DNA from: Baffinella frigidus
Taxonomy: Eukaryota; Cryptophyceae; Cryptomonadales; Baffinellaceae
NCBI GenBank assembly: GCA_026770585.1
Contig: MU646540.1
Location: 11,796-38,672 of the forward strand
Direction of reading: 5' to 3'
Length of the DNA: 26,877 nucleotides
A model generated the notes under the pieces. That model made no database searches. It was not told where the DNA came from and was given only the letters and a program-made list of their open reading frames with translations. Both the position numbers and the translations under genes were made by a program. Of this stretch, positions 1,374-26,802 are shown piece by piece; position 1 is the stretch's first letter, and every line of letters begins with the position of its first letter.

Positions 1374-1517
1374 GTGGCGCGCACGTTGAATGAAATCAAC
1401 TTCCCACGCCACACATGTGCCGCTGCCACCCCGCGTACTCTCCTCACTTGTACTCTCCGTGCGATTTGTTCCGGGGAATGGTTACCCCGGATATCCGGGG
1501 CTGACGGTACCCCGTAG

Positions 1518-1727
1518 CTGTTTGAGCGATCAGCTAGATGGATTTATTTGAAAGACTCTCGTTCTGATCACGGGACGATGACGCAAGGCTGCCCCCCACC
1601 CATGCGGGCACCGCAATAACATTACTTGCGACCTCTCCTGAAAAATGTCAGATGCATCGTAGGCTTCTCCATTGTAAGATGGGTACTTGGATAGCTCTTT
1701 GAGGAGTCGGGGCTGATGAAGAGCGGT
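1518..1727. other. Spacer before the telomere-like block; no feature seen
   Basis: About 210 bases with no exon-like frame. Short GGTACC and CCGGATATCCGG palindromes are present just upstream (1476-1510). Telomere-like repeats begin at about 1728. Confidence 0.3.
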
Positions 1728-2210
1728 ACCCTAAGCCCTAAACCCTAAAGCCTAAACCTTAAACCCTGAACCCTGAACCCTCAACCCTAAATCCTAGAAC
1801 CTAACCCTAAACCCTAAACCCCAAACCCTAAAACCTTATCCCAAAACACTAAACCATAACCCCTAAACCCCAAACCCTAAACCTTGAACCCTGAACCCTG
1901 AACCCCAAACCCGTAACCCCAAACCCTAAACCCTAAACCCTAAACCCTCATCCCTGAACCATAAACCCCAAACCCCAAACCACAAACCCTAAACCCTAAA
2001 CCCTAAACCCCAAGCCTGAACCCGAAACCCTAAACTCTAAACCCTGAACCCTAAACCCTAAACCCTACAACCCTAAACCCTGAACCCTCATCCCTAAACC
2101 CCCTAACCCCTAACCCCTAAACCTTAAGCCCTAAACCCTAAACCCTGAACCCTAAACCCTAAACCCCAAACCCTGAACCCTAAACCCTAAACCCTAAACC
2201 CCACACCCTT
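1728..2210. repeat. Degenerate CCCTAAA telomere-like array
   Basis: Dozens of 7-mers close to CCCTAAA (variants CCCTGAA, CCCCAAA, CCCGAAA, CCCTCAA) run uninterrupted on the + strand. This is the C-rich strand of a TTTAGGG-type telomere repeat. Strong degeneracy and internal position make it an interstitial array, not a working chromosome end. Confidence 0.9.
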
Positions 2211-4595: not shown

Positions 4596-4716
4596 TACAG
4601 GGGTACCTCGCTCATAAGAAACTGCCCCCCCCCTAGGATCACCATAGGGCCCTAGGCATAGGCCTGCTGTAGGGTCCTAGCGGGGGTTGGTTTCTTATGA
4701 GCGAGGTACCCCTGTA
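4596..4716. repeat. Foldback element with 27-bp perfect arms
   Basis: The left arm 4596-4622 (tacaggggtacctcgctcat...) is the exact reverse complement of 4690-4716. The centre is rich in CCTAGG and CTAGG. No clear target duplication flanks it. Related half-elements with 'cccctgta' ends and GTGCGTGTCCTT lie near 5297-5325 and 10306-10335. Confidence 0.75.
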
Positions 4717-4903
4717 ACTGAGCAGAAAGGCTCCCTGGTGCGCATCGAGGGTTGCGGAGAAGCGCGCCTCTTCTTACCAACGGGTGCGGCCTGAGCGAGA
4801 GTTGCGCGGTGCGAAAGAACACGTGATCGTGCCGCGTTGGTTCGTTCGCCCGCTCTCTCGCCTACTCAGCTGCGGTGTCTCCGAATCACAGGTCTGGAAA
4901 CAG

Positions 4904-5006
4904 CTAGCGCAGCTGAGCTCTGTTCTTTCCCCAGAGATGGGGGCGTTTGCGCCCCTGTATCTGTTCGCACACATCGTGTGCAGTACGCACGATCTCTCTC
5001 CAGGTC
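4904..5006 (-). CDS. Membrane-protein gene, exon 8 and stop
   Basis: Acceptor gggcag|G enters in phase 2, matching exon 7, and reads TWREIVRTAHDVCEQIQGRK to a TAG at 4904-4906. Composition is coding-like and the phase fits. The same DNA also has an open + frame, so confidence is moderate. Confidence 0.5.
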
Positions 5007-14000: not shown

Positions 14001-14182
14001 TTTCATTGAATCCAATGGTTCTAAATTAAAACCGTTTCCGCATTAGATCTTTTCCAATCGTTAGTGTTCTAGAGGAAGACCACGTTGAACGATCGTGAGA
14101 GTTGTGTGCACGCAGACCAACAGACCAGCAGAACGGCGGCTGACCCCCCTGCGCGTCACAGGAGCCTCGCTCACACTGACTT

Positions 14183-14221
<39 letters not shown>

Positions 14222-14753
14222 CGATTTGGTCTCCACCAATTTGGCGAGACCGGTCCTGTTTTCACCCCAAAGTTGACGGATTGGTACAACAGACCCAGCA
14301 TGTCGACTCACGCATAGTCAGCCAACCCGACTGAGGCAGAGCTAGACAGACGCCTGCGGACCGCCCGCGCTCAGAGGGCGAACGACATTGATTTTTGCGC
14401 TCAATTGAGTCTGTGAAGAAGTGAGCCGGATTGCGGCTCAGCTCATACAACTCCAAGGGAATCGGAAAAGGAGAGGTGTGACCCCTCGACGGGTGGGTGA
14501 GACGCTTGCACGACACTGCGCCGTACATACGGTGGTGCGGTGCACAACCTGAGCGTCACCTCACTGATTCTTTTGGATTTGACGAAACCACACGAATGAT
14601 GTGGAAGAGAAGGACAATGGATTGGTGCACCTGTCGCCGCAAAAGTTCTTGTAGAAGCGCGTCTTGCACATCCTCGTCCACGGGGCCGTCAGGGAGGTCC
14701 AGCGGCGCGGCCTTTCGGCTGGAGGCGAAGCGCGGGCGCGGGGGACCAACCAT
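4904..14753 (-). CDS. Eight-exon gene for a predicted four-helix membrane protein, family unknown
   Basis: I assembled eight - strand exons from coding-like segments whose splice phases all agree (0, 2, 0, 0, 0, 0, 2) and whose borders are GT..AG. The predicted product is ~231 residues. It has an acidic-then-basic N-terminus, helices at about residues 51-69, 92-109, 124-144 and 154-175, and a basic C-terminal tail (SLKYRCKN, then GKNRAQLR before the stop). I do not recognise a family, and no catalytic motif or signal peptide is visible. I chose the start at 14753 because its context (gggaaATGG) is good and it leaves a normal spacer before GFAT. The same frame stays open up to an ATG at 15098, only 26 bases from the GFAT start, which would add about 115 low-complexity residues. 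The gene is divergent to GFAT. Its introns (7376-14630) hold the same echo and foldback structure as GFAT. The 37-base exon 3 is the weakest link. Confidence 0.6.
5007..5825 (-). other. Membrane-protein gene, intron 7
   Basis: It holds three decayed copies of the exon 7 3' edge (core 'taccgctgca') near 5741-5775, 5638-5665 and 5340-5375, with ~100-bp spacing between the first ones. Near 5190-5280 the phrase tcgccttgatt recurs three times, twice inside a 21-bp direct repeat (5230-5250, 5258-5278). No further exon is needed by phase. Confidence 0.5.
5826..5905 (-). CDS. Membrane-protein gene, exon 7
   Basis: Acceptor ttacag|GTGTTC, 26 codons plus two bases, donor GC|gtgaaa. It encodes VFFLEACSGTRAEL and then RRLESLKYRCKN, the cytosol-like basic end of helix 4. 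A copy of its 5' part lies at 6137-6213, and copies of its 3' part near 5638-5665, 5741-5775 and 5340-5375. Confidence 0.6.
6251..6390. mobile_element. TYATCCGG foldback element, copy 1 (140 bp)
   Basis: A near-perfect palindrome. The left 56 bases (starting ttatccggggaaacc) equal the reverse complement of the right 56, around a ~28-base AT-rich loop. A 4-bp duplication ACCC flanks it (6247-6250 and 6391-6394). It has the inner core gaaaattactacac shared by the family. No coding capacity, so a non-autonomous MITE-like element. Confidence 0.85.
6445..6757. repeat. Older foldback element
   Basis: A perfect 17-bp inner inverted repeat (6511-6527 taccacgcaagagtgta against 6671-6687) lies inside weaker outer arms (near 6446-6463 and 6740-6757, 'ggtttaaa'). 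The arms have diverged, so this is older than the TYATCCGG copies. Confidence 0.6.
7377..7487 (-). CDS. Membrane-protein gene, exon 6 (helices 3-4)
   Basis: Acceptor cgcag|TCGG, donor CAG|gtgatc, 37 codons in phase 0, SAVLWAWLATRTATRASL followed by SPVLWLAMSAGLLGPIAV. It is the best intact member of a set of at least five copies. Others at 6916-6990, 7190-7276, 7630-7675, 8040-8090, 8838-8897 and 9013-9074 have lost a border, the frame or most of the length. Confidence 0.65.
7848..8020. repeat. Foldback element with CACTAGAGCGG ends
   Basis: The left arm from 7848 (cactagagcggttgcgg, then aacttggccgatttcaacg) pairs with the right arm ending at 8020 over ~43 bp with one gap. The loop contains the dispersed phrase ggtccatctaaac at ~7939-7951. 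The ends resemble the CACTA transposon end, but no matching target duplication is seen. Confidence 0.7.
8113..8800. mobile_element. 688-bp inverted-repeat element with captured GC-rich segment
   Basis: Ends are ttaggccacttcttaaaagg at the left and its near-complement ccttttaagaagtggcctta at the right. Sub-terminal zones repeat 'ataatcc' and 'ggattatgg' many times. The middle (8290-8640) is a GC-rich island with long frames on both strands, unlike the AT-rich ends. It looks like a non-autonomous transposon that picked up a host gene fragment. No transposase is present. Confidence 0.65.
8440..8567 (-). pseudogene. Captured gene fragment (identical inverted copy at 10349-10476)
   Basis: Read on the - strand this 128-bp segment can encode GATAIVELSRMVHADLAFSA. 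The same sequence is found on the + strand at 10349-10476 with no difference that I can see. It does not fit the splice phases of the surrounding gene (exons 5 and 6 both use phase 0), so it is treated as captured, non-functional DNA. Confidence 0.5.
9676..9829. mobile_element. TYATCCGG foldback element, copy 2 (diverged)
   Basis: Ends tcacccgggaac and cccggatca, flanked by gttt/gttc (three of four bases alike). Its interior matches 13609-13760 (ccggattctggccctaat; gggatcc; ttcttttaaa), so these two form a subfamily without the gaaaattactacac core. It sits right beside the exon 5 donor. Confidence 0.65.
9839..9907 (-). CDS. Membrane-protein gene, exon 5
   Basis: Acceptor ggcag|GTTATG, donor GCG|gtgcgg, 23 codons in phase 0, VMGNGSSARENR then AIHVGATAALA. 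Decayed copies of its 5' edge ('acag|gttatgggga' type) lie upstream on the same strand near 10610-10630 and 10143-10162, which supports the acceptor. Confidence 0.6.
10002..10141. mobile_element. TYATCCGG foldback element, copy 3 (140 bp)
   Basis: It has the same 140-bp length, arms and core as copy 1, with its AT-rich loop in the opposite orientation, as expected for a palindrome inserted the other way round. The flanking duplication is GCTC (9998-10001 and 10142-10145). The right end has one change (ggatga). Confidence 0.85.
10190..10330. repeat. CCTAGG-core foldback with internal 33-bp tandem repeat
   Basis: Diverged arms (cgcgaatgaggacaggcaac near 10195 against gtgcgtgtccttactcgctgg near 10305) surround two direct copies of a 33-bp unit (10228-10260, 10261-10293) that contains cctaggactagccctaccg. 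Confidence 0.6.
10349..10476 (+). pseudogene. Second copy of the captured fragment
   Basis: An inverted copy of 8440-8567, apparently identical over 128 bp, while nearly all other duplicated segments here are clearly diverged. It is preceded by gtgtag, an AG that could act as an acceptor on the + strand, but the host gene runs on the - strand. Confidence 0.55.
10755..10912. repeat. TTTAGGG-type interstitial array
   Basis: Degenerate G-rich telomere-like units on +, that is, the C-rich strand in the sense of the host - strand gene. Confidence 0.85.
11078..11208. mobile_element. TYATCCGG foldback element, copy 4 (131 bp)
   Basis: Ends ttatccgggaacaag and cttgttcccggataa, with an inner core tgaaaattactacacaa and its complement. 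Target duplication AGAG (11074-11077, 11209-11212). A related unoccupied sequence, gcgcgagacagaggtagag, lies at 11656-11674. Confidence 0.85.
11320..11440. repeat. Foldback element, CTGCCTGAATAAAACTGGG arms
   Basis: Left arm 11325-11346 and right arm 11409-11431 are reverse complements with one or two changes; flanks add a few more paired bases. The loop has a direct repeat aaaatacat. No family ends shared with TYATCCGG. Confidence 0.7.
11502..11648. repeat. Foldback element interrupting an exon 4 echo
   Basis: Arms around cggaagataacagaacc at the left and tgattccgttaactcccg at the right pair over ~29 bp with a few mismatches; inner arms include 'tttatgct'/'agcataaa'. It lies directly against the end of the exon 4 echo (…cgccatcatct), so it inserted into or beside it. 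Confidence 0.65.
11696..11767 (-). CDS. Membrane-protein gene, exon 4 (helix 2)
   Basis: Acceptor tgcag|GGGG, donor GGG|gtacct, 24 codons in phase 0. It encodes GAER followed by VAMMALVLGALSCFLSAF. A decayed copy of its 3' part with a GGG|gtgcct donor lies at 11438-11502. Confidence 0.65.
11768..12392 (-). other. Membrane-protein gene, intron 3
   Basis: It is made of a G-rich TTTCGGG array (11805-11922), an old foldback with ~70-90-bp arms (11930-12018 against 12188-12280), and a small perfect hairpin gggtccggatgata / tatcatccggaccc at 12283-12327. A ctg|gtgcgcgaaacc donor-like echo of exon 2 remains near 11838-11850. Confidence 0.5.
11930..12280. repeat. Old foldback with ~75% similar arms
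   Basis: The left arm (cgaaggggatttcgacgg ... taccggtcaattaaaagc) matches the reverse complement of 12188-12258 (attgaccgacgtttcaaccg ... ccttcgaagccccctgtg) at roughly three of four positions. Confidence 0.55.
12393..12429 (-). CDS. Membrane-protein gene, exon 3 (37-base micro-exon)
   Basis: Acceptor gacag|G, donor CAG|gtgcac. It enters in phase 2 and leaves in phase 0, exactly what is needed to join exons 2 and 4. It encodes PPPFDAFRQRGQ, a short loop. It is supported only by phase, splice sites and composition. Confidence 0.4.
12430..12996 (-). other. Membrane-protein gene, intron 2
   Basis: Nearly all of it is G-rich TTTGGGG/TTTCGGG repeat on +. Embedded are three echoes of the exon 2 3' edge and donor (tggcacgcc... 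then gtgcgcg or a lost donor) at 12845-12876, 12708-12733 and 12588-12600. The long + frames here only translate the repeat. Confidence 0.65.
12455..12995. repeat. TTTGGGG / TTTCGGG interstitial array
   Basis: About ten near-identical TTTGGGG units (12462-12540) are followed by TTTCGGG-type units. They are telomere-repeat variants with one substituted base, homogenised locally. C-rich in the sense of the host gene. Confidence 0.85.
12997..13097 (-). CDS. Membrane-protein gene, exon 2 (helix 1)
   Basis: Acceptor gtccag|GATG, donor TG|gtgtgc, 33 codons plus two bases. It encodes DAAEKAFSR and then the hydrophobic segment VLTAFDFAVGCLWLLAAYW. Phase 0 at entry matches exon 1. The 3' edge is echoed several times downstream in the intron. 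Confidence 0.65.
13265..13406. mobile_element. TYATCCGG-related foldback, copy 5 (older)
   Basis: Arms tttatgataaatactcc / gagtatttatcataaa with the inner core caacgaaattttctacac. The right end cgtccggatga fits the family, while the left end (aatcgcgg) has diverged and no clean target duplication remains. Confidence 0.65.
13609..13760. mobile_element. TYATCCGG foldback element, copy 6 (152 bp)
   Basis: Ends tcatccgggaacatg and ccccgtataa, target duplication ACAC (13605-13608, 13761-13764). Interior related to the element at 9676-9829; this pair lacks the gaaaattactacac core. Confidence 0.8.
13905..14045. mobile_element. TYATCCGG foldback element, copy 7 (141 bp)
   Basis: Ends tcatacgaaaacgg and ccgtttccgcatta with long arms (ttttaatttaaaa / ttctaaattaaaacc) and the core gaaatttactacac. 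Target duplication GATC (13901-13904, 14046-14049). The loop matches that of 10002-10141. Confidence 0.8.
14631..14753 (-). CDS. Membrane-protein gene, exon 1
   Basis: Forty-one codons, from MVGPPRPRF to LLQELLRRQ, ending at donor gtgcac in phase 0. It holds an acidic stretch (LDLPDGPVDEDVQDALLQE). Possible acceptors just upstream on the same strand (tttcag|g, ttacag|g) mean this could instead be an internal exon of a longer gene. Confidence 0.55.
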
Positions 14754-15124: not shown

Positions 15125-15221
15125 ATGTGCGGCATCACCGCTTACCTCGGATCCAAGCAGGCGGCAGCCATCCTCCTCTCAGGCCTCGCGCGCCTCGAGT
15201 ACCGTGGCTATGACTCCGCAG
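15125..15221 (+). CDS. GFAT: GFAT exon 1
   Basis: MCGITAYLG to GYDSA, ending in phase 1 at g|gtctgg. The start context ctaagATGT has A at -3. Cys2 is the glutaminase nucleophile. An in-frame upstream ATG at 14948 is ignored because Cys must be residue 2. Confidence 0.93.
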
Positions 15222-17195
15222 GTCTGGCCCAGGCCCCCTACCCTGGATTGGCCCGTCGGTTGCAGGATTGGGATCTGGAAGAAACCTTGCCAAGGCTCCG
15301 CGTCGCACCAGTCCCACGCGCCCTCTTTGAGACGGGACCCCCTAGGATTTTCCCCGCCTGTCCCGCTGTCTGCCGCACCTTCCCCTCCACCACCCTCCCT
15401 GCATCAGCGCCGTAGACCCCGGCCTAGCCAGTGGCGTTCTTTCCCCGAACACTCTTCTGCCTAAAAGCAGGCCGATAATTAGCGTCCTAGGCGGTCAAGC
15501 CGTCTGCGGCACACGCCGCCGCAGCCTTCCCCCTCTCCCTGCCGCCCTTTCCAGCCATGCGCTCTCCCGCCTCTTTCGCCGCGACCCGCCGTTCTCAGCG
15601 ACGGATCCCCACTCACTCGCCCTCCCCACCTCCCCTCTAAGATTGTGATGGTAGGGAGAGACGAACCCAACCTCGTCTCCCGCGTCTCCAACCATCATAC
15701 GAAGCCTTCACCGGACGCCCACTTTTCTCTCTCGGGTTTTCCTGCACCGCCCCGGAGGCCTTCTCTTGGTCTCGCGCTGTGAGAGTGCTCGTGGCGACCG
15801 TTTTGGCCGGGCAGCTGCAGCACACCCACACACTCTTCACTGTCATCCAGTTGCAGCGATGCCGCTGGTCTCACGCTGCCCCCTCCCCTTAACTCTAAAC
15901 CCTGAACCCTAAACCCTAAACCCTAAACCCCAAACCCCAAACCCCAAACCCCAAACCTGAAACCCCAAACCCCTCCCCGGCAGGCGTGGCGCTTGTGTCC
16001 GGCGGGAAGCTACAGACCCCGTAGCAGCCATCATCGTGCTAGTCCCACGCCGCCCCCTCCCCGCATGCCAGCCAACAATACGCGCAGGGCTTCATACCGC
16101 AATCTCATGATGGATTCTCTGGCCAGGCGATCCCGTAGCAGCAATCTCATCCGGCCAGGTATTTAATTTAAATGCTCGGCGGAGTTCTCCATACAACGAA
16201 AATTACTACACAAGCGGTAAAAGAGTCGTGTCCGAAAGATCGTGTGCAGTAATTTTCGTACATTCGGGGAACTCCCGAGCATTTAATTTAAATACCTGAC
16301 CGGATTAAATCATCGTGCTAGTCGCACGCTGCCCCCTCACCGCGCATCGCAGTCAACAATAAATACAGGGCTTCAAAGCCCTAAAAAAGGTATCTGCGGT
16401 ATCCGCAAATCTCATAATGGATTCTCTGGGCAGGCGTGGCGATTGTGTCCGGCGGGAAGCTGCAGATCAAGAAGAGGGTCGGCAAGGTCAGGGAGCTGCT
16501 CCCGGTCGCCCAGAGCCTCGAGGGCACGGTGCGTACATCCCTATCCCTTAAGTGGCCAGTAGGCTCATACGACCTACGGTAGGACCCTAGGACCTGCCTA
16601 GGGCGAGTTAGGGTGAATATTCGCCCGATGGTCACTTAAGGGATAGATAGTCACTATAGATAGTGACTATCTAACTGCCCACGCCCCGCCCCCCATCACC
16701 ACCATCACCGCCAGGATACCCTCATCGGGATAGTGCCCATCGGGATACCCTCATCCCTAAAACCGTCGGTACTTTTGGCGTCGGCAACTTCCATCATACG
16801 CAGCCTTGCACGCACGCCCACTTTTTTCCTGCCATCATACGCAGCCTACCACCGTACGCTTTTTGCCTAGCATCATACGCGTTTTGCCTAGCATCATGCG
16901 CAGCCTTGAACAAGGTTCGGGAGGTGCTCCCGGTCGCCCAGGGTCTCGAGGGCACGCTGCGTGCCCTAAACCCTACACCCTAACCATAAAACCCAAGACC
17001 ATACAACCCAAAACCATAAAACCATAAAACCCCAAACCATAAAACCCAAAGCCATAAAACCCAAAACCATCAACGTAAATTCCACACCCCTAATCCGAGG
17101 AGACGGTGCGTACCCTAAACCCTAAAACACAACCGCAAAACCCAAGCTCCTAATCCGAGGGGTCGGTGTCGGCTTCCATGCCGGCATCAAGAAAG

Positions 17196-17235
<40 letters not shown>

Positions 17236-18258
17236 AGGGATGTGTCTTATTTTTTTATGAAAGGATTTTTTTGTTCTTATTGGTGTAATTGAAGTCTCGA
17301 ATTCAGCGTGTTGGTGTCAAGAAAGGTCTCGCTCTCCTTCGAAAGAATCATTCCGTGCTTTTCGATTTAATTAACGTGTCGAACTGTTATTTCCGGCTTT
17401 ATCGAACGGTTAATCCCGTCTTTATCTCCCCTCCATCGATTTAATTGATGTCCACATCGATTTAATTGATATCCATAAGTTTTTCGTGTAATTTTCGAGT
17501 TAATTGACATGTTGAACTGTTCAGGTTGGGATCGGGCACACGCGCTGGGCGACCCACGGCGAGCCGACCGAGCCCAACGCCCACCCGCATACGGTACCGC
17601 CCAATTTCACATGGAAATGTAATTAAATCGAATCTGGTTTCGCATGACATTACGGGATTCCGGTGTCCACCCTGCCGTATTGCATTCACGCGGCGAAGGA
17701 GCGTAGTCTCCCATCACGGGAGGCTCTCTGCAGCGCAGCGATTCAGCACACACTCTCATCCATCGCGGATGTGTAGAGCGCTGTGCAGAGAAGTTGGCCA
17801 CCGGAAAACGGGGAAATGGGAAAATTGGAGCCATTTTGTCTACTTTTGAGAAATTTATGGTTCTAAATTTCTCAAAAGTTGACAGAATGGCTCCAATTTC
17901 TTGATTTTCCATGATTTTCCGTGGCCAACTTCTCTGCACAGCGCTCTACCAGGAATGCAACACACGGTTTGATCGTGGAGGTTCGCGGGTTTGTACCGGG
18001 GGTTTCCGCTGTCCAGGAATGAACACGCACTCACCCCGGCAGCTGCTCGATTTCACGTGGAAGCAGATTTGAATCGAATCCGATTTCGCAGTAAGTTACG
18101 GCGTTGTGTTGTCCACCCTGCCGTGTTGCATACGGTCGGACCCTGTCGCTCTCTGTCGCTCTCTCTCGCTCTCTCTCGCTCTCTCTCTCTCGCTCTCTGT
18201 CGCTCGCTCTCTCTCTCTCACACACACGCACGCGCGCGCTCTCTCTCTCTCTCTCTCG

Positions 18259-18289
<31 letters not shown>

Positions 18290-20672
18290 GCTCTCTCTCT
18301 CCCTCTCTCTCTCTCGCGCGCGCTCTCTATCGCTCTCTCTCTCACACAAACACACTCTGTCGCTCTCTCTCTCGCTCTCTCTCTGTCTCTCTCGCTCTCT
18401 CTCTCTCTCTTCGAGCCGAGGGGGCCGAACGCGCACCCGCGCAAGGTACGTCTTAAGGGTTCGGTATTTAGGGGTTGGGTTTTGGGGGTTGGGTCTCAGG
18501 TTTTGGTACCACCACGGGACGCCGTCTGGAGTGCATAATTATTTCACAACCACTATGTTTTGAAGGATGGATTTTAAGTCGGCGGATTTGCGCCCAGATC
18601 GGTACCAGTAGCCCTCTTGACCTCTCTCGTCGTCAAACCCCAACCCTAAACCCCAACCCCCAAACACTAAACCCCAAACCCTGCACCCTCACCCTGAACC
18701 CTGAACCCTGAACCCTGAACCTGTAACCCGGCATAAAACTTTATTCTCAAAATTTCCCTAACCCCCAACCCTAACCCTACACCAACAGGACAACGGCGAG
18801 TCGTTTGCGAGCGACTCCACCCCATACCAAACACTCAACCTCAACCCCCAACCCTAAGCGCGCTGGTGCACAACCGGATCAGGGTGAGCCAGGATGACTG
18901 ACTTTACAATCCTAACCCCAACCCTTAACCCCAAACCATAAACCATACGCCATACACCATAAACCATAAACCATAAATTCGTAATAGGACCACGGTGAGA
19001 CTTTCGCGCTAGTGCAGTGGATGTAGGCTTAATGTAGCACGACCGGGCGGAGATTTTGATGCTACATTAAACCCTGTGCTACATTAGGGCATTGGTAGCC
19101 TTAAGGATTTTGCCCTTCGGGACCTTGCCCACCGTGCTACAATAGGGCCCGTGCTACATTAAGCATATGCTATATTAGCCTACATCCACTGTACGCCATA
19201 AACCGTAACCCATGAACCAAAACCCGTAATAGGACCACGGTGAGACTTTCGCGCTAGTGCACAATGAACGCGCACTCACTCCGGCTCAATTTTCTGCTCA
19301 ATTTCACGTGGAAGCAGACTTGAATCGAATCCGATTTCGCAGTAAGTTAGTAACCAAAACCCGTAATAGGACCACGGCGAGACTTTCGCGCTAGTGCACA
19401 ATGGGATCATCGAGAACTACCACACGCTCAAGGCGATGCTCGCCAAGAAGGGCTACACCTTCTACTCCGACACCGACACCGAGGTCTCTCTCCACCCTTG
19501 TGGTAGGGGCAATTGCTCCAACAGTGTTAATCTGTCTACTTGTGCGGGTTTTTTTCGGCATGAAATCGCCAGAACCCACTCTGGAATGCGCCTTTTTGTA
19601 CCGCAAGTCATGCAGATTGACGCATGGGTGAAATCTGAACTGATACTAAACCCTAGACCCAACGCCCTGAGCTCGAAATCCGGCAACCGAACCCCCAACC
19701 TCCAAAGCCCAAACCCGAATGCGCAGGTCCCTGAGCTCGAAACCCGAAAACCGAACCCCCCACCTCTAAAGCCCAAACCCGAATGCGCAGGTGTTGGCGA
19801 AACTGATCGCGGACGTGATCCAGACCAGCCCCACGCTCACCCTCGGGGAGGTCCAAACCCCCAAACCCTAAACCCTAAACCCTCAACCCCAAACCCCAAA
19901 CCCGAAACCCGAAACCCTTGACACCAAACTCTCAACTCTCAACCCTAAACCCCAAACTGTAAACTCCAATCCCTAAACCCGAAACCCTGAACCCTAAACC
20001 CTGAAAGGGAGGTTCGGTAGTGGATTTGGGTTTCGGGGTTCGGGTTTGGACCCCTACGCTCACCCTGGGCGAGGTCCAAAACCCCAAACCCTAAACCCTA
20101 AACCCCAAGCTCCAAACCACAAGCACGAGGCCTGTACTCCAATCTCAAACGCTCTTTACTACACCAAGAGTTCACGGACCGCCACGAAATTTGCCCATGT
20201 TTCTTCCCACGTTTCCACCGTTTGTAAGGCCCTTCAGCCTTGAGTTGAGTGATACAAACGTCTACGCGCCTCAACGAAACGAGCCCGCCTCTCACTCGGC
20301 GCATGGTAGCAAGAAAGGTCTCTCGCTCTTTCAGTAACGAATTCCTCTCCCGTGAGCATGCTGACGGTGTCGGACACCGCATGCTGACGTGGCGACCCCC
20401 CACACCGTCAGCATGCTGACGTCACTTGGAGTGCTGACGCGTCTCCCGAGCAACACGCTGTCCCGGTGCGCATCTATCTTGGTAGTAAAAAATGTAGTAA
20501 AAAAGGCCGCTTGCTGAGCAGGCGACGCGCGAGGCGCTGCGGCACGTGGTGGGCGCCTACGGGATCGCCCTCTGCTCCAAGACGGACCCCGACATCCTCG
20601 TCGCCGCCCGCATGGGGTCTGCCGCCCTCCCCTCACAGCCGTCTCATTCTTTATTATATTTATATTTATATT

Positions 20673-20704
<32 letters not shown>

Positions 20705-23700
20705 CGGGGCGAACGCGGTTAGAATCCAGAGTAATGGATACGATTCTAGTACAAATGGTTTAGGTGGACTGTATCCGTGAAGCCTCCGGTGGCTGTTGAG
20801 TGGTACTCGATTCCCGGCGACCCCCTTTGATACACATCCGCCGGACGACCAGACTCTGTTTAGGCGCGGGATAGTGTGGTTAGGCGCGGGATAGTGTGGT
20901 TAGGCGCGGGATAGTGGTGGTGTATCCCTGGGCGTGGGCACCGAATCGACTGGGCAATTACCGTAGCCGATACCGTAGGCTTAAGTACCCTGAATGTAGG
21001 CCGTTACCCCTATTAACACGCTGATGGGCGCAGGTTGCCGCGAATCCTTGGGTTGGTTCCCGAAACCCGAAACCAAAAACACGGAGTTGATTTTAGAAAC
21101 CATCGATTTGCCCAGAACTTGCCTCCAGGGTGCTCGCCGTGATTCCTAGGAGGCAGATCGCAGAGCTAGCGCGCGCCTTCTTGACTACCGCTCGCGCGCA
21201 GCCCTTGGGTTGGTGGGCGAGGGTGGGTAATCCACTGCGCAATTCCTCGGTTCAAAAAAGGTCCTAGGTTATTAGGCGCGAGAATTGATGGCGCATTCTC
21301 TGATTGCAGGTCGCCGCTGATCCTCGGCGTGGGCGACGGCGAGTACTTCGTCGCGTCTGACGCGTCCGCCTTCCTCGAGCACACCCGCCAGGTTCCGAGA
21401 ACCTACTCCGGGAAATTCAGAACCCTGCAACGGAAATTAAGAGGAGGAAAGAATTGTGTCGTAAATTTCGTTGACAGAAACTCTTTCTAGAAAGCTTTGG
21501 GAGATTGACGAGGGCGAGTACTTCGTGGCGTCCGACGCGTCCGCCTTCCTCGAGCACACCCGCCAGGTCCCGTAGTAAATTACTAAACCGTGTAGTAAAT
21601 TACTGTAGTAGGTGTAGTAAATTACTATAGTAAATTACTACACTACTAAATTATTGTAGTAAATTACTACACATTTGTGTGGTGAATTTATGAGACGTGT
21701 AGTAAATTAGGGAATGTTGGGGAATGCGCGAGTACTGGGTGGCTTCCGACGCGTCCGCGTTCCTCGAGCACACCCGCCAGATTCCGAGCCCTCGAATAAA
21801 CCGTCAACTCTTGAACAATACCCTTACCACTAACCCCTTGCCCCCAAACCCCAAACACTACACCCTAAACCCTAAACCCTAAACCCTAAACCCCAAACCG
21901 TGAAACCCAAACCCAAAACCCTAAACCCTCAAACCAAAACCCTACACCCTAAACCCCACACCCCATCGCAGGTGGTGCACCTGCAGGACGGGGAGATGGT
22001 GGTTTGCACGCGCGCCGCAGGCTACACCGTTTCCACGATCAAGGGCGGGGACGTACGGTCGCCCTCTGTCACGGAAATCGAGGTACGGATTGAGATACGC
22101 ATTCCATGATCGGGGAGACCAACCCTGCACCTTGCACCCTAAACCCGAACATCCCTACACCATCAACCCTAAACACTTTTCTCCACGTGCTGACCCCTAA
22201 CCCTCAACCCTTTATGCATAAAGGGCCTCAGAGGAAGCGGTGATTGCTTTTCCAGGGGCCGCTGAAGCAGATCGATGTCTGAATCCTAAACTCCAAGCCC
22301 TACCCCTACCCCCTTTTTTCGTTGATCCGTGGTTGACAGGGGACGCTGGGGCAGATCGAGAGGGGGGGGTACACGGTTTAGGGTTTAGGGTTTAGGGTTC
22401 AGCAACCAGAAGAGAACCAAACCGGGATATGCCACCTGCACCAAATTTCACCAGCCTCGGATAAACCCTGAGGATTTATCTCTGGTGATAAATATCTCTG
22501 GTGATAAAATTTACTCAGCTCCACCCCGATTTGGTTCTGTTGTGATTGCTGGGGGTTGCTGGGGACGCTGGAGCAGATCGGTCCCCAATCTAATCCCTCC
22601 GAGCATTCATCATGCACACGATTTAACAACGAAAATTACTACGCAAATGCTTAATACACGTACTAGTAAAACAGTGGTGTAGTAATCTTCGTTGGCAAAT
22701 CGTATTCATCATCCCGCGGTTTGCACGACGGGCGGCTCTTCGGTCTTGAGCGGGAAACTGCATCGATGCCCAGACCATAAATCCCGAACCCTGCACCCCT
22801 AATATCCCTAAACCCTGAACCCCCATAATCCCTAAAGGTTAAACCCATATCGATTTGCAGGGGATGCCCAGACCCTAAATCCTGAACCCTGCACCCCTAA
22901 TATCCCTAAACCCTGAACCCCCATGATCCCTAAAGGTCAAACCCATATCGATTTTCAGGGGACGCTGGAGCAGATCGAGAAGGGGGGGTACAAGCATTTC
23001 ATGCTCAAGGAGATCCACGAGCAGCCCCGGCGAGTGCCCTAACCCCTGAACCCTGAACCCTGAACCCTGAACCCTGAACCCGAAACACGAAACACGAAAC
23101 GCGAAACACGAAACACGAAACCTAAACCCTACACCCTAAACCCTGAACCCGAAACCCGAAACACGAAACTCGAAACCCTAAACCCTGAACCCTGAACCCT
23201 GAACCCTGCGCCCTGACCCATTAAACCCTAAACCCTAACCCCTTAAACCCTGAACGGTAAACTCTAATCACTACACCCTTAGGGCGGTGTTCACACCTGT
23301 TGGCCACGAAAAGAATGGAACACCGCTCAAAGTTGATGGTGCTGCTACTGAAATGTCGACAGTGGGCATTGTTTGGTTGTTTTCGCTGCCAAAAGATCTG
23401 AAGAACGCTCTAACCCTGAACCTTACATTCGAAATGTGCATGCGCAGGCGAGTGCGCCTCAACGCCTCTTTAGGTCCTTTAGGTTTTAATTTCTCCCAAC
23501 ATATGCCAACGACACGCCCTTCCGTAGAAAGGACTGCAGAACCTCGCCCCCTAACCTCTGCACCCAAATCCCCAATCCCCAACCCCCAATCCCCACACCC
23601 TACACCCGAACCCCTGCGCCATGAACCCCACACCCGAAACGCAGTTCGCTCGAAATGTGCATGCGCGGGCGAGTGCGGCTCAACGCCTCGCACCCCTTAA

Positions 23701-26700
23701 TCCCTGCAGGGTTTGGGGTTTAGAGTTCGGGTTTAAGGTTGACCCAAATCCCTGATCCCTGATCGCCAACCCCAAAACCCTACACCCTAACCCCTGCACC
23801 CTGAACCCTGAACCCCACACCCCGATCCCCAGGTCGCTGGAAATGTGCATGCGCGGGCGAGTGCGGATCAACGCCTCGCAACCCCCCTCGCCTACCTTAG
23901 GCTTCTCGCCCACGGCCCCCGAGGTCCGTTTGCCAACCACTTAGCAGCCACCGAGGGGTTCACGGATACAGTCTGTTTGCCCGACCCTCAGATCTGACGT
24001 TTGAGCCCGAAGCGTCCGAGGTCAGTTTGCCAAACCCTTCAGTTTTGACGTTCTGAGGGACTCGCGTGGAGCCCTCGCCCACGGTAGGCTTTCGCCCAAG
24101 CCCCCCGAGGTCTCCACCAACCCTCACACAGCCTGAGCAAATCGTCGAATTTGAGGCCACGTATTTCCCTTGGAGGCCGCCGGATTCCGGCGTCCGTGGA
24201 GCCATTTTTCCGAAAATCGAAAATCATCGATTTGCTCAGGCTGTGAGGGTTGGTGGGTGTTTGCCAGTCCCTCACTGCGCGCCCGGACGCGAAAAGGTTC
24301 CGCAAAACGAAAGAGGGGTGTTGCGTGTTCACACCGGGTAACGTACGCACGGTAAGGCCTGTGCCTCACTGCAGCTCCCGCGGGCGGAGGGCTAGCCGAG
24401 CATCACGCTGGGCGGGATCCAGAACCTCATGGGGGGTGCTCCCAGGGGCAAATCTTAAGTCAATCTCCCACAGATGCGCCCAGATCCCAGGCGCATTTGG
24501 ATGGGAGCTGATTTTAGAAACCATCGATTTGCTCAGAACTTGCCTCGAGGGTGCTCGCCGTGATTCCTAGGGGGCAGATCGCAGAGCTAGCGCGCGCCTT
24601 CTTGACTACCGCGCGCGCGCAGCGCTCGTGGTACACACCATTCACACTCAGGACTCCTAATTCACGTACCCTCCCGCCATTTACGTACCCTCCCGCCTAG
24701 ATTAAGCGTGATTGCGGCGGTGGTAGTGTACTCGCTTCATACATTTTTTGGTGGTGATGTGCACCCCCGAAACAGCTTCCGCAGGTGCAGGGCGAGCCGT
24801 CGATCATGCTGGGCGGGATCGAGAACCTCATGGGCGAGGGCGACGAGAAGTGGTCCGTCCTCGAAAAGCTCCAAAAGGTTACGAGCCCTCCCTTATTTGT
24901 TTTTTTGGTACCATGCGTTGAAAGAAAGGTTAAGTTTTGTACGAGATCGTTTTGACATGTGTACCGCGGTGGAGAGTTTGCAGTTGAGTTGGGGGGAGAG
25001 TTTGCTTTATTGTTTTGTACCAGGCGTTTTAAGACAATGCTAAGTTTTGTACCAAGTCGTTTTGAAGTGTGTCCCGCGGTGGTGAGATGGCAGTTGAGGT
25101 AGGGTGAGTTTGCGCGGGATGGAGCGTTTGCAGTTGAGATGGGGTGGGTTTGCGCGGGATCATGTGCGAGGGAGACGACTAGTGCTCCGTCCTCCAGAGG
25201 CTCCAAGAGGTTCGCTCTAAACCCTCAACAATAAACCCTCAACCCTAGATGGGTCGCTCTTAACCCCAAACCCTAAACCGTTTAAGGTCCTGAAGTCTCG
25301 GCCCGCGAGGACCGCAGCTCCCCCTTTTTGCTTTTGGGGTTAGCACTTTGGCACCAGCGGAGGATGCCAACTGGGCTTGCCATAAAATCCAAACACACCA
25401 GGAAAGGAAATCAAGTACAAAATCACAATTGAAACATATTTATGGCCGGCCCAATTTCGACCAGGCAGAGCGAGTTAACCCCGAAACCGTCACGCAATGC
25501 CGGCGGATCTTCTTCTGCGCGTGCGGGACGTCGTGGCACGCGCTTTACAAAGCCTCTGTAAAGTAAAAATGTAAAGTAACTCTGTAAAGTAACTCTGTAA
25601 AGTAACTCTGTAAAGTAACTCTGTAAAGTAACTCTGTAAAGTAATTCTGTAAAGCAACTTCGTACCAGCCCCGGAAACCCCAAACCCCAACCCCTCCCCC
25701 CAGTGCCGGCGGATCATCTTCTGCGCGTGCGGGACGTCCTGGCACGCGCTTTACAAAGCATCTGTAAAGTAACTCTGTAAAGTAACTCTGTAAAGTAACT
25801 CTGTAAAGTAACGCTGAAAAGTTACTTCTCACCCCCCCCCAGAAACGACGAAATCCCAACCCCGACACCCTCAAACAGTGCCGGCGGATCATTTTCTGCG
25901 CGTGCGGGACGTCGTGGCATGCGGCGCTCGTCGGGGAGTACATGCTCGAGTCGCTCTGCCGCATCCCCGTGGAAGTCGAGTACGCCTCCGAGTTCAGGTG
26001 CCGCGCGCATCTCGACCTCGCATGGAAAAATATTTAATTTAAGTTATTTTTGGGTATCTTACGGGTGGGTTTTGAGGTACGGTAAGGCTGTTGAGGGTAA
26101 GATAGCAATATCCCCCCGTAAGATGACACGGAGGCACGCGGCGCCCGTCGGGGAGTACATGCTCGAGTTGCTCTGCCGCATCCCCGTTGAAGTCGAGTAC
26201 GCCTCCGAGTTGAGGTGCCTAGACCCTAGACCCTGCACCCTACACCCTGCACCCTACACCCTACACCTTACACCCTATACCACGCGCGCATCTTCCAGCT
26301 GGTTTTGGGCAAGTCCTCATTTCGTGTTGTGGGCCGCGCGCATCCCCACAGCGTTTGTAGCTACAAACAGGGATTTCGTGAATACCTCATCTAGGAACAC
26401 GCCCTAGGACCCTATACGGTAGGCTTCCCGTAGGGACAAAGGGGTGTTCCTACGGATATCTGGGGACATGATGAAGACTCTCTGGCGTATCCCCGTCGAT
26501 TTCTGGTCCGGGAAGCGCCTCGGTTTCTGGGCCTGGGATGTAGGGCGTATGGTGTAGGGTCTAGGATTTAGGGCTGACAACTGGCACGCGCACCCGCCGT
26601 GTTTCCCACGGACACCACGTCCCGACGCGCCCTTTCCAAGGACGTGACGTCCCGACGCGCACACCCGTCGCCCATCACGTCTTGCTGAGCACACCACTCA

Positions 26701-26802
26701 CCCATCACGTCCTGATCACGCCCTGACGCGCACACCCGTGCAGGTACCGCTCGGTGGTGCTGCGTCCGGACGAGGACATCGTCATCGTCATCTCCCAGTC
26801 CG
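15125..26802 (+). CDS. GFAT: Glutamine:fructose-6-phosphate aminotransferase (isomerizing), N-terminal 13 exons
   Basis: GFAT converts fructose-6-phosphate and glutamine into glucosamine-6-phosphate and glutamate, the first step of hexosamine (UDP-GlcNAc) synthesis; it is cytosolic. Thirteen exons with matching phases give ~385 residues. The class II glutaminase signature is complete: Met-Cys2-Gly-Ile start (Cys2 is the nucleophile once Met is removed, which fixes the start at 15125), EYRGYDSAG at 25-33, [10 protein letters not shown] at 69-78, HNGIIENY at 97-104 and SDTDTE at 120-125. Arg71, Trp72, Asn98, Gly99 and Asp123 are the expected glutaminase-site residues. The linker MRGRV and the sugar-isomerase (SIS) motifs CACGTSWHA (333-341) and SQSG (383-386) follow. 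Family members are ~600-680 residues, so the rest of both SIS domains is beyond the right edge. Introns make up about 90% of the span. Confidence 0.95.
15984..16015 (+). pseudogene. Echo of GFAT exon 2, 5' edge
   Basis: ccggcag then [11 protein letters not shown], followed by unrelated sequence. It keeps an acceptor-like AG and the reading frame but lacks two thirds of the exon. Confidence 0.8.
16147..16307. mobile_element. TYATCCGG foldback element, copy 8 (161 bp)
   Basis: Ends tcatccggccaggta and tacctgaccggatta; long arms include atttaatttaaatgctcg and the core cgaaaattactacac. Target duplication AATC (16143-16146, 16308-16311). The loop shares gtccgaaa with copy 4. Confidence 0.85.
16434..16528 (+). 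CDS. GFAT: GFAT exon 2
   Basis: Acceptor gggcag|GCGTGG, donor ACG|gtgcgt; [20 protein letters not shown] then [11 protein letters not shown]. It matches the family region between RGYDSAG and HTRWATHG. The earlier partial copy at 15984-16015 stops after KLQ. Confidence 0.92.
16529..17524 (+). other. GFAT intron 2
   Basis: A foldback (16541-16646) begins 12 bases after the donor. Then come a perfect small hairpin (tagatagtcactat / its complement, 16645-16674), repeats of catcatacgcagcct (16790-16905), and an echo of the exon 2 3' edge with lost donor (16911-16965). CCCTAAA-type sequence (16965-17065), two short 'taatccgagg' echoes (17092, 17150), a (CT)n run (17196-17233) and an AT-rich stretch with atcgatttaattga repeated (17436-17469) complete it. 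Confidence 0.6.
16541..16646. repeat. CCTAGG-core foldback beside the exon 2 donor
   Basis: ctatcccttaagtggccag at the left pairs with tggtcacttaagggatag at the right; the middle contains cctaggacctgcctaggg. Related in core to the foldbacks at 4596, 10190 and 26389. Confidence 0.7.
17525..17593 (+). CDS. GFAT: GFAT exon 3
   Basis: Acceptor gttcag|GTTGGG, donor ACG|gtaccg; [20 protein letters not shown], then PHT. It contains the Arg-Trp pair of the glutamine-binding loop. Confidence 0.94.
17773..17949. repeat. Foldback with ~80-bp arms
   Basis: gtagagcgctgtgcagagaa at the left matches the complement of the end at 17949, and pairing continues through ttggccac and aattggagccatt to a short centre near 17860. 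Arms are roughly 85-90% alike. Confidence 0.75.
18143..18410 (+). repeat. CT-rich microsatellite (ctctctcgct units)
   Basis: A 268-base pyrimidine strand on +, with only C, T and interspersed G, plus CACACA patches at 18219-18228 and 18343-18352. It lies upstream of an exon 3 echo and so, unlike a normal polypyrimidine tract, is far from the used acceptor. Frames across it are low complexity. Confidence 0.85.
18412..18445 (+). pseudogene. Echo of GFAT exon 3, 3' edge
   Basis: [11 protein letters not shown] then gtacgt. The donor GT is intact and nearer the consensus than the used donor (gtaccg), so this is a possible alternative 5' splice site only if an upstream acceptor existed. Confidence 0.75.
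18988..19266 (+). pseudogene. Two echoes of GFAT exon 4, 5' edge
   Basis: At 18988-19016 and 19232-19266 the phrase aatag|gaccacggtgagac, then tttcgcgctagtgca, repeats the true exon start with one change (ggt for ggc). The first is cut by the foldback at 19015; the second continues to acaatg and then diverges. Less similar relatives stand at 18799-18826 (DNGESFA) and 18857-18882 (LVHNRI). Confidence 0.8.
19015..19191. repeat. Foldback inserted in an exon 4 echo
   Basis: cagtggatgtaggct at the left is the exact complement of agcctacatccactg at the right; inner arms repeat 'gctacatta' four times. It interrupts the echo after 'cgctagtg'. Confidence 0.75.
19370..19483 (+). CDS. GFAT: GFAT exon 4
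   Basis: Acceptor taatag|GACCAC, donor GAG|gtctct; [20 protein letters not shown], then the segment up to SDTDTE. Asn98-Gly99 (oxyanion hole) and Asp123 (glutamine binding) are here. Four truncated copies of its 5' edge precede it. Confidence 0.94.
19484..19790 (+). other. GFAT intron 4
   Basis: Shortest GFAT intron in the set (307 bases). The last 140 bases are C-rich telomere-like sequence with two copies of a unit ending gcccaaacccgaatgcgcag; the second is the used exon 5 acceptor, the first (19710-19730) an echo. Confidence 0.65.
19791..19850 (+). CDS. GFAT: GFAT exon 5
   Basis: Acceptor gcgcag|GTGTTG, donor GAG|gtccaa; [20 protein letters not shown], equivalent to the helix after SDTDTE in the family. 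Confidence 0.88.
19851..20521 (+). other. GFAT intron 5
   Basis: It starts in CCCTAAA-type repeats (19855-20010), has an exon 5 3'-edge echo with donor (20055-20073, acgctcaccctgggcgag|gtcc), then a hairpin region built on agcatgctgacggtg (20355-20417, 63 bases; a third and fourth partial copy up to 20440). No other exon seen. Confidence 0.6.
20522..20616 (+). CDS. GFAT: GFAT exon 6
   Basis: Acceptor tgagcag|GCGACG, donor GG|gtctgc in phase 2; [18 protein letters not shown], then [13 protein letters not shown], the 'GA(Y/F)' strand and 'AAR(R)GSPL' region of the glutaminase domain. Confidence 0.92.
20617..21309 (+). other. GFAT intron 6
   Basis: An AT microsatellite (20654-20704) is followed by a dispersed repeat (20708-20812: tagtacaaatg, ttaggtggactgtatccg, gtggctgttgagtgg) and three tandem copies of taggcgcgggatagtgtggt (20861-20920). 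A ~118-bp repeat (21084-21202) is shared with intron 10. No telomere-like array and no exon echo is obvious. Confidence 0.6.
21084..21202 (+). repeat. Intronic repeat shared with GFAT intron 10, copy 1
   Basis: It matches 24509-24622 at about 95%, from gattttagaaaccatcgatt through gcagatcgcagagctagcgc to the CG-rich end. One frame of the last third reads [16 protein letters not shown] in both copies, so it may be a fragment taken from another gene. Confidence 0.75.
21310..21391 (+). CDS. GFAT: GFAT exon 7
   Basis: Acceptor attgcag|GTCGCC, donor CAG|gttccg; [20 protein letters not shown] then FLEHTRQ. It joins exon 6 to restore Gly-Ser-Pro-Leu. Two copies of its 3' part follow in the intron. 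Confidence 0.93.
21507..21780 (+). pseudogene. Two echoes of GFAT exon 7, 3' part
   Basis: Copy one reads [19 protein letters not shown] before gtcccg. Copy two reads [18 protein letters not shown] before attccg. Both keep the codon frame with mostly silent differences from the exon. Confidence 0.85.
21573..21712. repeat. GTGTAGTAAATTACT array
   Basis: Seven or eight irregular copies of gtagtaaattact, several of them back to back as inverted pairs (gtagtaaattactac). The unit is the inner core of the TYATCCGG foldbacks (gtgtagtaattttc / gaaaattactacac), here multiplied without the outer arms. Confidence 0.7.
21972..22082 (+). CDS. GFAT: GFAT exon 8
   Basis: Acceptor atcgcag|GTGGTG, donor GAG|gtacgg; [18 protein letters not shown], then [19 protein letters not shown]. 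This is the last part of the glutaminase domain. The C-rich telomere-like repeat directly precedes the acceptor. Confidence 0.9.
22083..22958 (+). other. GFAT intron 8
   Basis: At least three echoes of the exon 9 5' edge with acceptor (22256-22276 gggccgctgaagcagatcga; 22340-22374, nearly as long as [12 protein letters not shown]; 22562-22580) are separated by short telomere-like pieces. A core-bearing foldback (22619-22700) follows. A recent 98-bp tandem duplication (22765-22960) creates the final acceptor. One G-rich patch (22376-22402) breaks the usual strand rule. Confidence 0.7.
22619..22700. repeat. Foldback carrying the gaaaattactac core
   Basis: cgatttaacaacgaaaatta pairs with agtaatcttcgttggcaaatcg; the flanks both contain attcatcat (22607-22615, 22702-22710), possibly a 9-bp target duplication. 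It lacks the TYATCCGG ends. Confidence 0.65.
22765..22960 (+). repeat. Fresh 98-bp tandem duplication across the exon 9 acceptor
   Basis: Two units, 22765-22862 and 22863-22960, are ~95% identical (gatgcccagacc ... catatcgatttgcaggg). The unit end lies at the exon start: copy one ends ttgcag|gg, copy two ends tttcag|gg and continues into exon 9. It therefore copied the acceptor and the first bases of the exon. Confidence 0.85.
22959..23029 (+). CDS. GFAT: GFAT exon 9 with a probable GC donor
   Basis: Acceptor tttcag|[26 protein letters not shown], then EQP. Joining to exon 10 to give the expected EQP-R-S-L-E requires the exon to end in CCCCG followed by gcgagt, a GC-AG intron. No GT gives the right frame nearby. 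Confidence 0.85.
23030..23832 (+). other. GFAT intron 9 (GC-AG)
   Basis: It begins gcgagt. Most is CCCTGAA/CCCTAAA/CACGAAA-type repeat (23036-23280, 23550-23640, 23740-23830). Two echoes of the exon 10 5' edge (23427-23478 and 23645-23698, cgaaatgtgcatgcgc... inaacgcct) precede the real one; neither keeps an AG directly before the match. Confidence 0.7.
23427..23698 (+). pseudogene. Two echoes of GFAT exon 10, 5' part
   Basis: 23427-23478 reads [14 protein letters not shown] and 23645-23698 reads [15 protein letters not shown] if shifted to match (the latter has ttcgctcg for tcgctgg). Both end where the true exon continues with its Pro-rich tail. Confidence 0.8.
23833..23923 (+). CDS. GFAT: GFAT exon 10
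   Basis: Acceptor ccccag|GTCGCT, donor GAG|gtccgt; [16 protein letters not shown], then [19 protein letters not shown] is the conserved link between glutaminase and isomerase domains. The Pro-rich tail of this exon has no counterpart that I recall in typical family members. Two 5'-edge copies precede it and two 3'-edge copies follow. Confidence 0.87.
24115..24255. repeat. Foldback with 30-bp arms
   Basis: caccaaccctcacacagcct then gagcaaatcg pairs with cgatttgctcaggctgtgag then ggttggtg with one mismatch. It begins right after the second exon 10 echo donor. Confidence 0.75.
24509..24622 (+). repeat. Intronic repeat shared with GFAT intron 6, copy 2
   Basis: See 21084-21202. A few substitutions (gctcagaac for gcccagaac, ctcgaggg for ctccaggg) and a slightly different CG-rich end. 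Confidence 0.75.
24785..24877 (+). CDS. GFAT: GFAT exon 11
   Basis: Acceptor tccgcag|GTGCAG, donor AAG|gttacg; [16 protein letters not shown], then [15 protein letters not shown]. It corresponds to the 'LGGL' segment that leads into the first SIS domain. Confidence 0.88.
24878..25878 (+). other. GFAT intron 11
   Basis: A repeated block on 'ttttgtaccatgcgtt / gtgtaccgcggtgg / agtttgcagttgag' recurs three times (24898-24990, 25012-25100, 25118-25150). Then come the exon 11 3'-edge echo with donor (25163-25209), a short CCCTAAA piece, and two echoes of the exon 12 5' part (25498-25542, 25704-25748), each running into a tandem 13-mer ctgtaaagtaact. Confidence 0.7.
25498..25820 (+). pseudogene. 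Two echoes of GFAT exon 12, each followed by a 13-bp tandem repeat
   Basis: Both copies read [15 protein letters not shown] (or [12 protein letters not shown]) and then LYKASVK before a stop. The first has lost its acceptor (caa for cag); the second keeps cccag. The 13-mer repeats about seven times in 25556-25655 and about four in 25762-25815, so the whole unit (exon part plus array) was duplicated. Confidence 0.85.
25879..25997 (+). CDS. GFAT: GFAT exon 12
   Basis: Acceptor aaacag|TGCCGG, donor AG|gtgccg in phase 2; [15 protein letters not shown], then [19 protein letters not shown] and YASEF. CGTS is the sugar-phosphate-binding loop of SIS1. Copies at 25498 and 25704 stop after WHA and run into tandem repeats, so only this copy is a complete exon. 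Confidence 0.93.
25998..26743 (+). other. GFAT intron 12
   Basis: It holds an 84-base echo of the exon 12 3' part (26131-26214, [19 protein letters not shown] then YASE and a gtgcct donor) and a weaker one (26464-26530, LWRIPVDFW). A CCCTACA array (26218-26280), a foldback (26389-26452), and three copies of the acceptor-side phrase acgcgcacacccgt (26578, 26653, 26727) complete it. Confidence 0.65.
26389..26452. repeat. Small CCTAGG-core foldback
   Basis: taggaacacgccc pairs with aggggtgttccta; the loop is cctaggaccctatacggtag. Upstream at 26353-26368 is a perfect 16-base palindrome gtttgtagctacaaac. Confidence 0.6.
26744..26802 (+). CDS. GFAT: GFAT exon 13 (last in window)
   Basis: Acceptor gtgcag|[25 protein letters not shown] plus one base, donor g|gtagac (phase 1). 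SQSG is the second phosphate-binding loop of SIS1. The next exon is outside the window. Confidence 0.9.

Follow-up and report, generated by a model that had tools for sequence, protein, structure and literature searches.

Many introns of an Arctic cryptophyte alga appear to have grown outward from their exons by repeated duplication across the exon-intron border

Genes and exon models

The window analysed here is a 26,877-nucleotide stretch of cryptophyte nuclear DNA (contig MU646540.1, positions 11,796 to 38,672 of the forward strand) from the Baffinella frigidus assembly GCA_026770585.1, which comprises 382 Mb in 1364 contigs. It carries a GFAT gene on the plus strand, which continues past the window, and our model of 13 exons for this gene (Table 1) encodes 388/388 residues equal to the MMETSP/JGI transcript protein P0001. 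The transcript (LPQ) places the start of exon 11 at 24776, at an acceptor 9 nt upstream of the 24785 initially assigned. In the CCT-alpha gene, at a separate locus (L113), residues 30-552 of the transcript protein P0122 fall exactly on 17 exons, whose donors are GT or GC and whose acceptors are AG.

A second gene lies on the minus strand of the window (5822-14753), and its exons match at 100% a protein named Baffinella frigidus T484DRAFT. The public protein P0121 stops after the exon at 9830-9907; coding-looking exons with echoes of their own follow downstream at 7377-7487 and 5822-5905, with the reading frame as their sole support, and the P0121 model may be truncated. The window also contains a 128-bp inverted repeat (8440-8567 and 10349-10476, 2 kb apart), which is 100% identical and thus probably recent. 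An array of CCCTAAA-like units (1728-3283), switching at 2209 to TTTAGGG-like units, lies between a coding-looking plus-strand stretch (834-1385) and the minus-strand gene.

Table 1 Exons of GFAT and echoes of exon edges in the window (positions count from the first nucleotide of the window).
Feature	Position	Strand	Basis
GFAT exon 1	15125-15221	+	Spliced model equals P0001
GFAT exon 2	16434-16528	+	Spliced model equals P0001
GFAT exon 3	17525-17593	+	Spliced model equals P0001
GFAT exon 4	19370-19483	+	Spliced model equals P0001
GFAT exon 5	19791-19850	+	Spliced model equals P0001
GFAT exon 6, neither edge with detected echo	20522-20616	+	Edge test; P0001
GFAT exon 7	21310-21391	+	Spliced model equals P0001
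GFAT exon 8, neither edge with detected echo	21972-22082	+	Edge test; P0001
GFAT exon 9, GC donor	22959-23029	+	Spliced model equals P0001
GFAT exon 10	23833-23923	+	Spliced model equals P0001
GFAT exon 11	24776-24877	+	Spliced model equals P0001
GFAT exon 12	25879-25997	+	Spliced model equals P0001
GFAT exon 13, gene continues past window	26744-26802	+	Spliced model equals P0001
Exon 2 5' edge echo, 5 nt intron + 33 nt exon	15979-16016	+	
Exon 2 acceptor copy, intron-long class, 31 nt intron + 3 nt exon	16097-16129	+	
Exon 2 3' edge echo, 46 nt exon + 6 nt intron, donor GT lost	16911-16962	+	
Exon 3 3' edge echo with donor	18412-18449	+	
Exon 4 5' edge weak echo, most distant of four	18784-18809	+	
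Exon 4 positions 18-40 copy, stops short of junction	18859-18881	+	
Exon 4 5' edge echo with acceptor	18969-19016	+	
Exon 4 5' edge echo with acceptor, nearest	19215-19266	+	
Exon 5 acceptor copy in 64-bp tandem, ends in AG|GT	19667-19728	+	
Exon 5 3' edge echo with donor, continuing into telomere-like array	20052-20128	+	
Exon 7 3' edge echo with donor, near copy, exon part 95%	21509-21572	+	
Exon 7 3' edge echo, far copy, donor GT to AT	21728-21788	+	
Exon 9 5' edge echo with acceptor	22249-22275	+	
Exon 9 5' edge echo with acceptor	22337-22373	+	
Exon 9 5' edge echo, acceptor AG lost	22561-22580	+	
98-bp tandem pair across exon 9 acceptor	22765-22962	+	
Exon 10 5' part far echo, starts 7 nt within exon	23431-23468	+	
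Exon 10 5' edge near echo, 56 nt intron + 52 nt exon	23597-23696	+	
Exon 10 3' edge echo with donor, loose alignment	24005-24033	+	
Exon 10 3' edge echo with donor	24072-24112	+	
Exon 11 5' edge echo with acceptor	24372-24433	+	
Exon 11 3' edge echo with donor	25160-25212	+	
Exon 12 5' edge echo, acceptor AG to AA	25477-25542	+	
Exon 12 5' edge echo with acceptor	25669-25748	+	
Exon 12 3' edge echo with donor	26133-26219	+	
Exon 12 3' part echo, weak, far	26462-26510	+	
Second gene, last exon (5822-5905) 5' edge echo, upstream of exon	6137-6225	-	
Second gene, exon 7377-7487 3' edge echo, downstream	6918-6995	-	
Second gene, exon 7377-7487 5' edge echo with acceptor, upstream	8832-8948	-	
Second gene, exon 11698-11767 3' edge echo with donor, downstream	11436-11499	-	

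Side and frequency of the exon echoes

A sequence-only reading of the window had described decayed copies of exon edges, here called echoes, in at least ten of the twelve GFAT introns, and had proposed a side rule by which copies of a 3' edge lie only in the following intron and copies of a 5' edge only in the preceding one. BLASTN of the 13 GFAT exons against both strands of the window (E<=0.01; exon 11 taken from 24785 in this run) gave 18 non-self matches, all of them direct (18/18); each lies in the neighbouring intron that the rule predicts, and no match at this threshold is inverted. The best inverted match at E<1 (E=0.023) lies inside the second gene, and the two best within GFAT reach E=0.077 and 0.15.

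An edge test with exon-only 40-nt edges, in which a strong copy was one scoring at least 30, found such a copy in the predicted intron at 12 of the 24 GFAT edges (13/24 at a score of at least 28), compared with 0/22 in the exon's other adjacent intron; the two sides are not equally represented. At the same threshold there were none in all other introns (0/242) or in shuffled introns (0/1440, with a single one at 28), and dinucleotide-preserving shuffles reached a maximum score of 26 in 2880; the shuffles rule out a chance origin of the echoes. Echoes are thus carried by 9/12 introns at a score of at least 30 and by 10/12 when intron 5, at a score of 29, is included, in agreement with the sequence-only count, and the echo positions reported there were borne out, including weak ones at 18784-18809, 24005-24033 and 26462-26510. 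A 64-bp tandem repeat in intron 4 includes the acceptor together with 2 nt of exon 5; intron 6 has no echo, and at 11 to 12 of the 24 edges no echo of the exon could be detected. The splice dinucleotide is intact in 16/20 echoes, two of these 16 having been read by eye from alignments 1-3 bases out of register, and is broken in the other four. Junction-spanning segments have been duplicated, often repeatedly, and one complete exon has been kept, as the earlier reading had it. At the protein level no echo is used as an exon in P0001 (388 residues) or P0122 (residues 30-552), both of which follow the echo-free models.

The same side rule holds in CCT-alpha, where the edge test found a right-side copy at 5/32 edges, in 5/16 introns, with 0/30 on the wrong side and 0/450 in other introns; BLASTN (E<=0.01) gave six direct matches, 6/6 on the right side, and no inverted match. 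At the transcript-proved edges of the two genes combined, 17 copies lie on the right side and 0/52 on the wrong side, without exception to the rule. The expectation that almost every intron of a gene carries such copies therefore stands for GFAT (10/12) and fails for CCT-alpha (5/16): echo prevalence differs between genes, and GFAT is a rich example.

Exon cores anchored by Pfam matches extend this result. We scanned 21 cores, namely 23 loci minus L100, whose match crosses stops, and L105, with 100 nt beside each core excluded and halves assigned by midpoint, and found 15 echoes in 8/21 cores, none breaking the side rule; the six upstream echoes are all centred in the 5' half of their core and the nine downstream echoes all in the 3' half. 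The CCT-alpha gene accounts for four of the 21, and without them there are 12 echoes in 6/17 cores. Two matches at L109 span almost the whole core (12-108 of 108). The helicase match of L105 lies in a 1744-aa open frame that is AT-rich, as judged from its translation, and is possibly nucleomorph DNA in the assembly. In the second gene the side rule is also seen, aside from one ambiguous match (8060-8084) that covers exon interior only and clearly fits neither side. By eye, the CCT-delta region (L114) has a similar appearance. Of five arbitrary stretches that were visible in part, dense local repeats occur in the largest three, two of which show, by eye, ladders at coding-looking segments. Local direct repeats are common in the window and in the stretches examined.

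Anatomy of the copies and of the DNA between them

Copy limits were compared over 21 usable rows (25 minus three CCT-alpha rows aligned to the real edge and one GFAT duplicate), a small sample in which all limits derive from one scoring scheme. Below, E4-5 denotes the 5' edge of exon 4, E7-3 the 3' edge of exon 7, and likewise for the others. Copies reach or cross the junction in 19/21 rows and most include the splice signal, with median lengths of 6 nt for the intron part and 40 nt for the exon part. Of the 18 usable GFAT rows, 11 have an intron part of 0-8 nt and five, all on the acceptor side, one of 18-56 nt; the remaining two rows end 7 and 17 nt inside the exon. Acceptor-side rows of GFAT are thus mixed in intron-part length, and all 7/7 donor-side rows share 3-8 nt of intron, next to 34-82 nt of exon. 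Longer donor-side intron parts occur at E5-3 (54 nt, telomere-like), in the second E10-3 copy (about 13 nt) and at core L106 (about 21 nt). The three usable CCT-alpha rows have intron parts of 9 (E3-3, donor side), 56 and 11 nt. A mirror class, long on the intron side and short on the exon side, is found at the acceptors of exons 5, 9 and 2, with 60+2, 60+7 and 31+3 nt of intron and exon, the first two values being limited by the 60-nt query.

Beyond the copies, similarity over the next 40 nt of flank is not significant in 19/21 usable rows. Copies differ from their exon by 0-24% in the usable GFAT rows, and nearly all copies differ. In 20 listed pairs the spacing ranges from 2 to 814 bp and is 61-814 bp in 18/20; close tandems occur at E5-5 (64 bp) and E9-5 (98 bp). 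One filler is related to the next at E10-5 and E12-5, and E2-5 has a repeated intron unit; at E4-5, at E7-3 and between the remaining E9-5 copies, consecutive fillers are unrelated, giving a copy-filler-copy structure. The proposal that introns grow by tandem duplication is therefore upheld in part: it fits several acceptor-side cases (E5-5, the 98 bp at E9-5, E12-5, E10-5 and E2-5) and fails at the edges with unrelated fillers and at most donor-side cases, including all usable GFAT donor rows.

The fillers contain telomere-like arrays, CT runs, a 13-mer array and high-copy palindromic elements, and the description of the introns as assembled from echoes was overstated, since much of their length is filler of these kinds. 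Two palindromic elements, at 16542-16645 (about 104 bp) and 17773-17949 (about 177 bp), have many near copies in the genome, judging from 40 candidates scored of 1997 for the former and 40 of 716 for the latter; they resemble MITEs. They sit inside two fillers without delimiting the copies. Inspection by eye revealed no obvious shared filler ends, and the idea that the fillers are one transposon family bounding the copies was dropped on this ground.

Seven GFAT edges have more than one exon-bearing copy. The nearest copy is the most similar to the exon at E7-3, E9-5, E10-5 and E12-3 and is tied at E4-5 and E12-5; at E10-3 the order is reversed, with the near copy weaker. Among multi-copy Pfam cores, L099 agrees with the nearest copy being the most similar, L108 is tied, and L104 and L109 disagree.

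Proposed routes to longer introns

We consider it probable (roughly 0.75) that these patterns arose as splice junctions were locally duplicated again and again, in part head to tail and in part with unrelated filler. Segments of about 20-100 bp in Baffinella genes would be duplicated locally and frequently, leaving copies either head to tail or separated by unrelated DNA. Tandem duplication and staggered double-strand-break repair with inserted filler are the likely sources, and both plain tandem duplication and copy-filler-copy events seem to be needed. Where a duplicated segment spans a junction, the exon body would remain attached to one copy only, and the outer copy would become a half-exon with one splice site inside the intron, removed by splicing, with exon definition probably favouring the copy that has both splice sites. 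Duplications within exons would presumably be purged by selection, those across junctions would be tolerated and lengthen the intron, and repeated events at one junction would produce a ladder. The side rule follows from the geometry of junction-spanning duplication, making a special splicing mechanism unnecessary. Repeats touch exons in 16/32 GFAT pairs, against a mean of 7.8 for circularly shifted exons (p=0.015), and in 6/11 CCT-alpha pairs, against a mean of 4.6 (p=0.34). Because this excess of exon contact is modest in the former gene and absent in the latter, a generally high rate of local duplication, which shows up where conserved exon is copied, suffices for most of the data, and slower decay of exon copies could yield the GFAT excess. 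What general local duplication leaves unaccounted for is the short intron part (3-8 nt) of donor-side copies.

The alternatives overlap with local duplication across junctions, and their probabilities do not sum to one with its own. Plain head-to-tail duplication, with its structure hidden by later insertions and decay, would explain the tandems at E5-5 and E9-5, the related fillers at E12-5 and E10-5 and the repeated unit at E2-5, but successive fillers at E7-3, E4-5 and E9-5 are unrelated, and recent copies (exon part about 94-95% at E2-5, E7-3, E9-5 and E12-3) lack significant flank similarity, so that we regard it as rather unlikely. More doubtful is a process targeted to splice-site-like motifs (AG|GT or CAG|G), in which an element that inserts itself, or a break linked to splicing or transcription, would cut the DNA at the junction and duplicate a variable stretch to one side. 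The short intron parts in 11/18 GFAT rows and in every donor row, the lack of significant flank similarity further out and the exon-short mirror class all point towards it; five acceptor-side GFAT rows reaching 18-56 nt, two rows ending inside the exon, CCT-alpha rows of 9-56 nt throughout, fillers without obvious common ends by eye and high-copy elements that do not delimit the copies point the other way. That a splice-site- or motif-coupled mutation duplicates exon edges with filler, as an intron-length ratchet anchored at AG|GT, strikes us as slightly less probable again. If it were true, the position of the break would be marked by the donor-side ends, 3-8 nt beyond the junction, and intron growth behind the expansion of this genome could be read from the ladders as from a clock.

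Functional half-exons, acting as decoy splice sites, in recursive splicing or as regulated alternative ends, might be suspected from the splice dinucleotides kept in 16/20 echoes, but at modest divergence most dinucleotides would persist by chance, four are broken, the transcript proteins match models without echoes, and echoes are absent at about half of the GFAT edges and at 27/32 CCT-alpha edges, which makes such a role very improbable. An assembly or low-complexity artefact could be imagined in introns rich in telomere-like arrays and microsatellites; with matches that fall in coding sequence, nearly all copies differing from their exon, GFAT and CCT-alpha models confirmed by transcript proteins and no shuffle at threshold, its probability is close to negligible. 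Dispersed or templated copying is disfavoured by the lack of inverted matches at E<=0.01 in GFAT and CCT-alpha and of any on the wrong side. Nested self-insertion of exons, considered from the overlapping limits of 5' and 3' echoes at exons 11 and 12, was rejected on exon 2, which shows no overlap.

Mechanisms of the class that we favour, local duplication across junctions, are already known from potato RdRp and Daphnia, as excerpts of those reports describe them. In the potato excerpt (PMC4974935), tandem duplication over the 3' end of an intron and the 5' end of the next exon gave rise to one new intron; boundary-crossing duplication and the conversion of a small upstream exon piece to intron are the likeness, whereas potato RdRp concerns one intron and a contiguous tandem, and GFAT shows copies in 10/12 introns, in several steps at a junction, at donors as well and frequently with filler, and suggests growth rather than a proven gain. 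Daphnia neointrons, according to part of the paper (PMC4202315), arise by staggered double-strand-break repair that leaves direct repeats of terminal exon bases of 4-12 bp, and repeated breaks were proposed there to lengthen nascent introns. Direct repeats of terminal exon bases and intron-internal repeats are common to both systems, and direct repeats around inserted sequence, as expected of staggered breaks, occur at E4-5, E7-3 and E9-5; the listed Baffinella copies, however, are about 20-100 nt long, outside the Daphnia range, and form ladders next to the exon.

Other systems are more distant. The AGGT tandem-duplication model and Hellsten et al. 2011, as summarised in passages of a review (PMC3443670), likewise involve duplication of AGGT splice-site motifs with the remainder spliced out, but create a new intron within an exon, whereas here existing introns appear to grow. 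Introners, in the excerpt of PMC9860276, are mobile sequences that also add to intron content; they form a repeat family, whereas Baffinella echoes are gene-specific, and exon 2 with its flanks matched its own locus only in the portion of the assembly searched; in the two fillers with high-copy repeats, these repeats cover parts and not the whole. The main text of that study contains none of the terms cryptophy, Baffinella and CCMP2293. Short direct repeats at intron borders (PMC11782384, in part) also lie close to splice sites, but average 11.4 bp and come from a comparison between both ends of a single intron, and are not exon edges repeated in the intron next to them.

The literature searched, which included few subscription papers, contained no description of long exon-edge copies arranged in ladders across most introns of one gene. 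Intron lengthening is usually credited to transposons and slow drift. With exon sequence as a tag, single growth events could be counted and roughly ordered at many junctions, which would permit direct tests of where growth events originate, whether breaks prefer splice sites, and by what means half-exons whose splice sites are intact are passed over by the spliceosome. The genome of Baffinella sp. CCMP2293 is 6.1 times that of Guillardia theta, as given in an excerpt of PMC9756366, and in view of this difference the process may bear on genome expansion.

Degenerate telomere-like motifs have their C-rich strand mostly in the sense direction at 21/21 Pfam-anchored loci (1076 vs 175, some loci sharing a gene). 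Counts of C-rich sense to opposite motifs are 195:46 in GFAT, 117:35 in the second gene, 229:13 in CCT-alpha and 82:49 in CCT-delta; on the plus strand of 1386-5800 they are 63:96. The motif CCCTAAAC is similar to a branch point together with a pyrimidine tract, and selection for acceptor function may thus have favoured this orientation.
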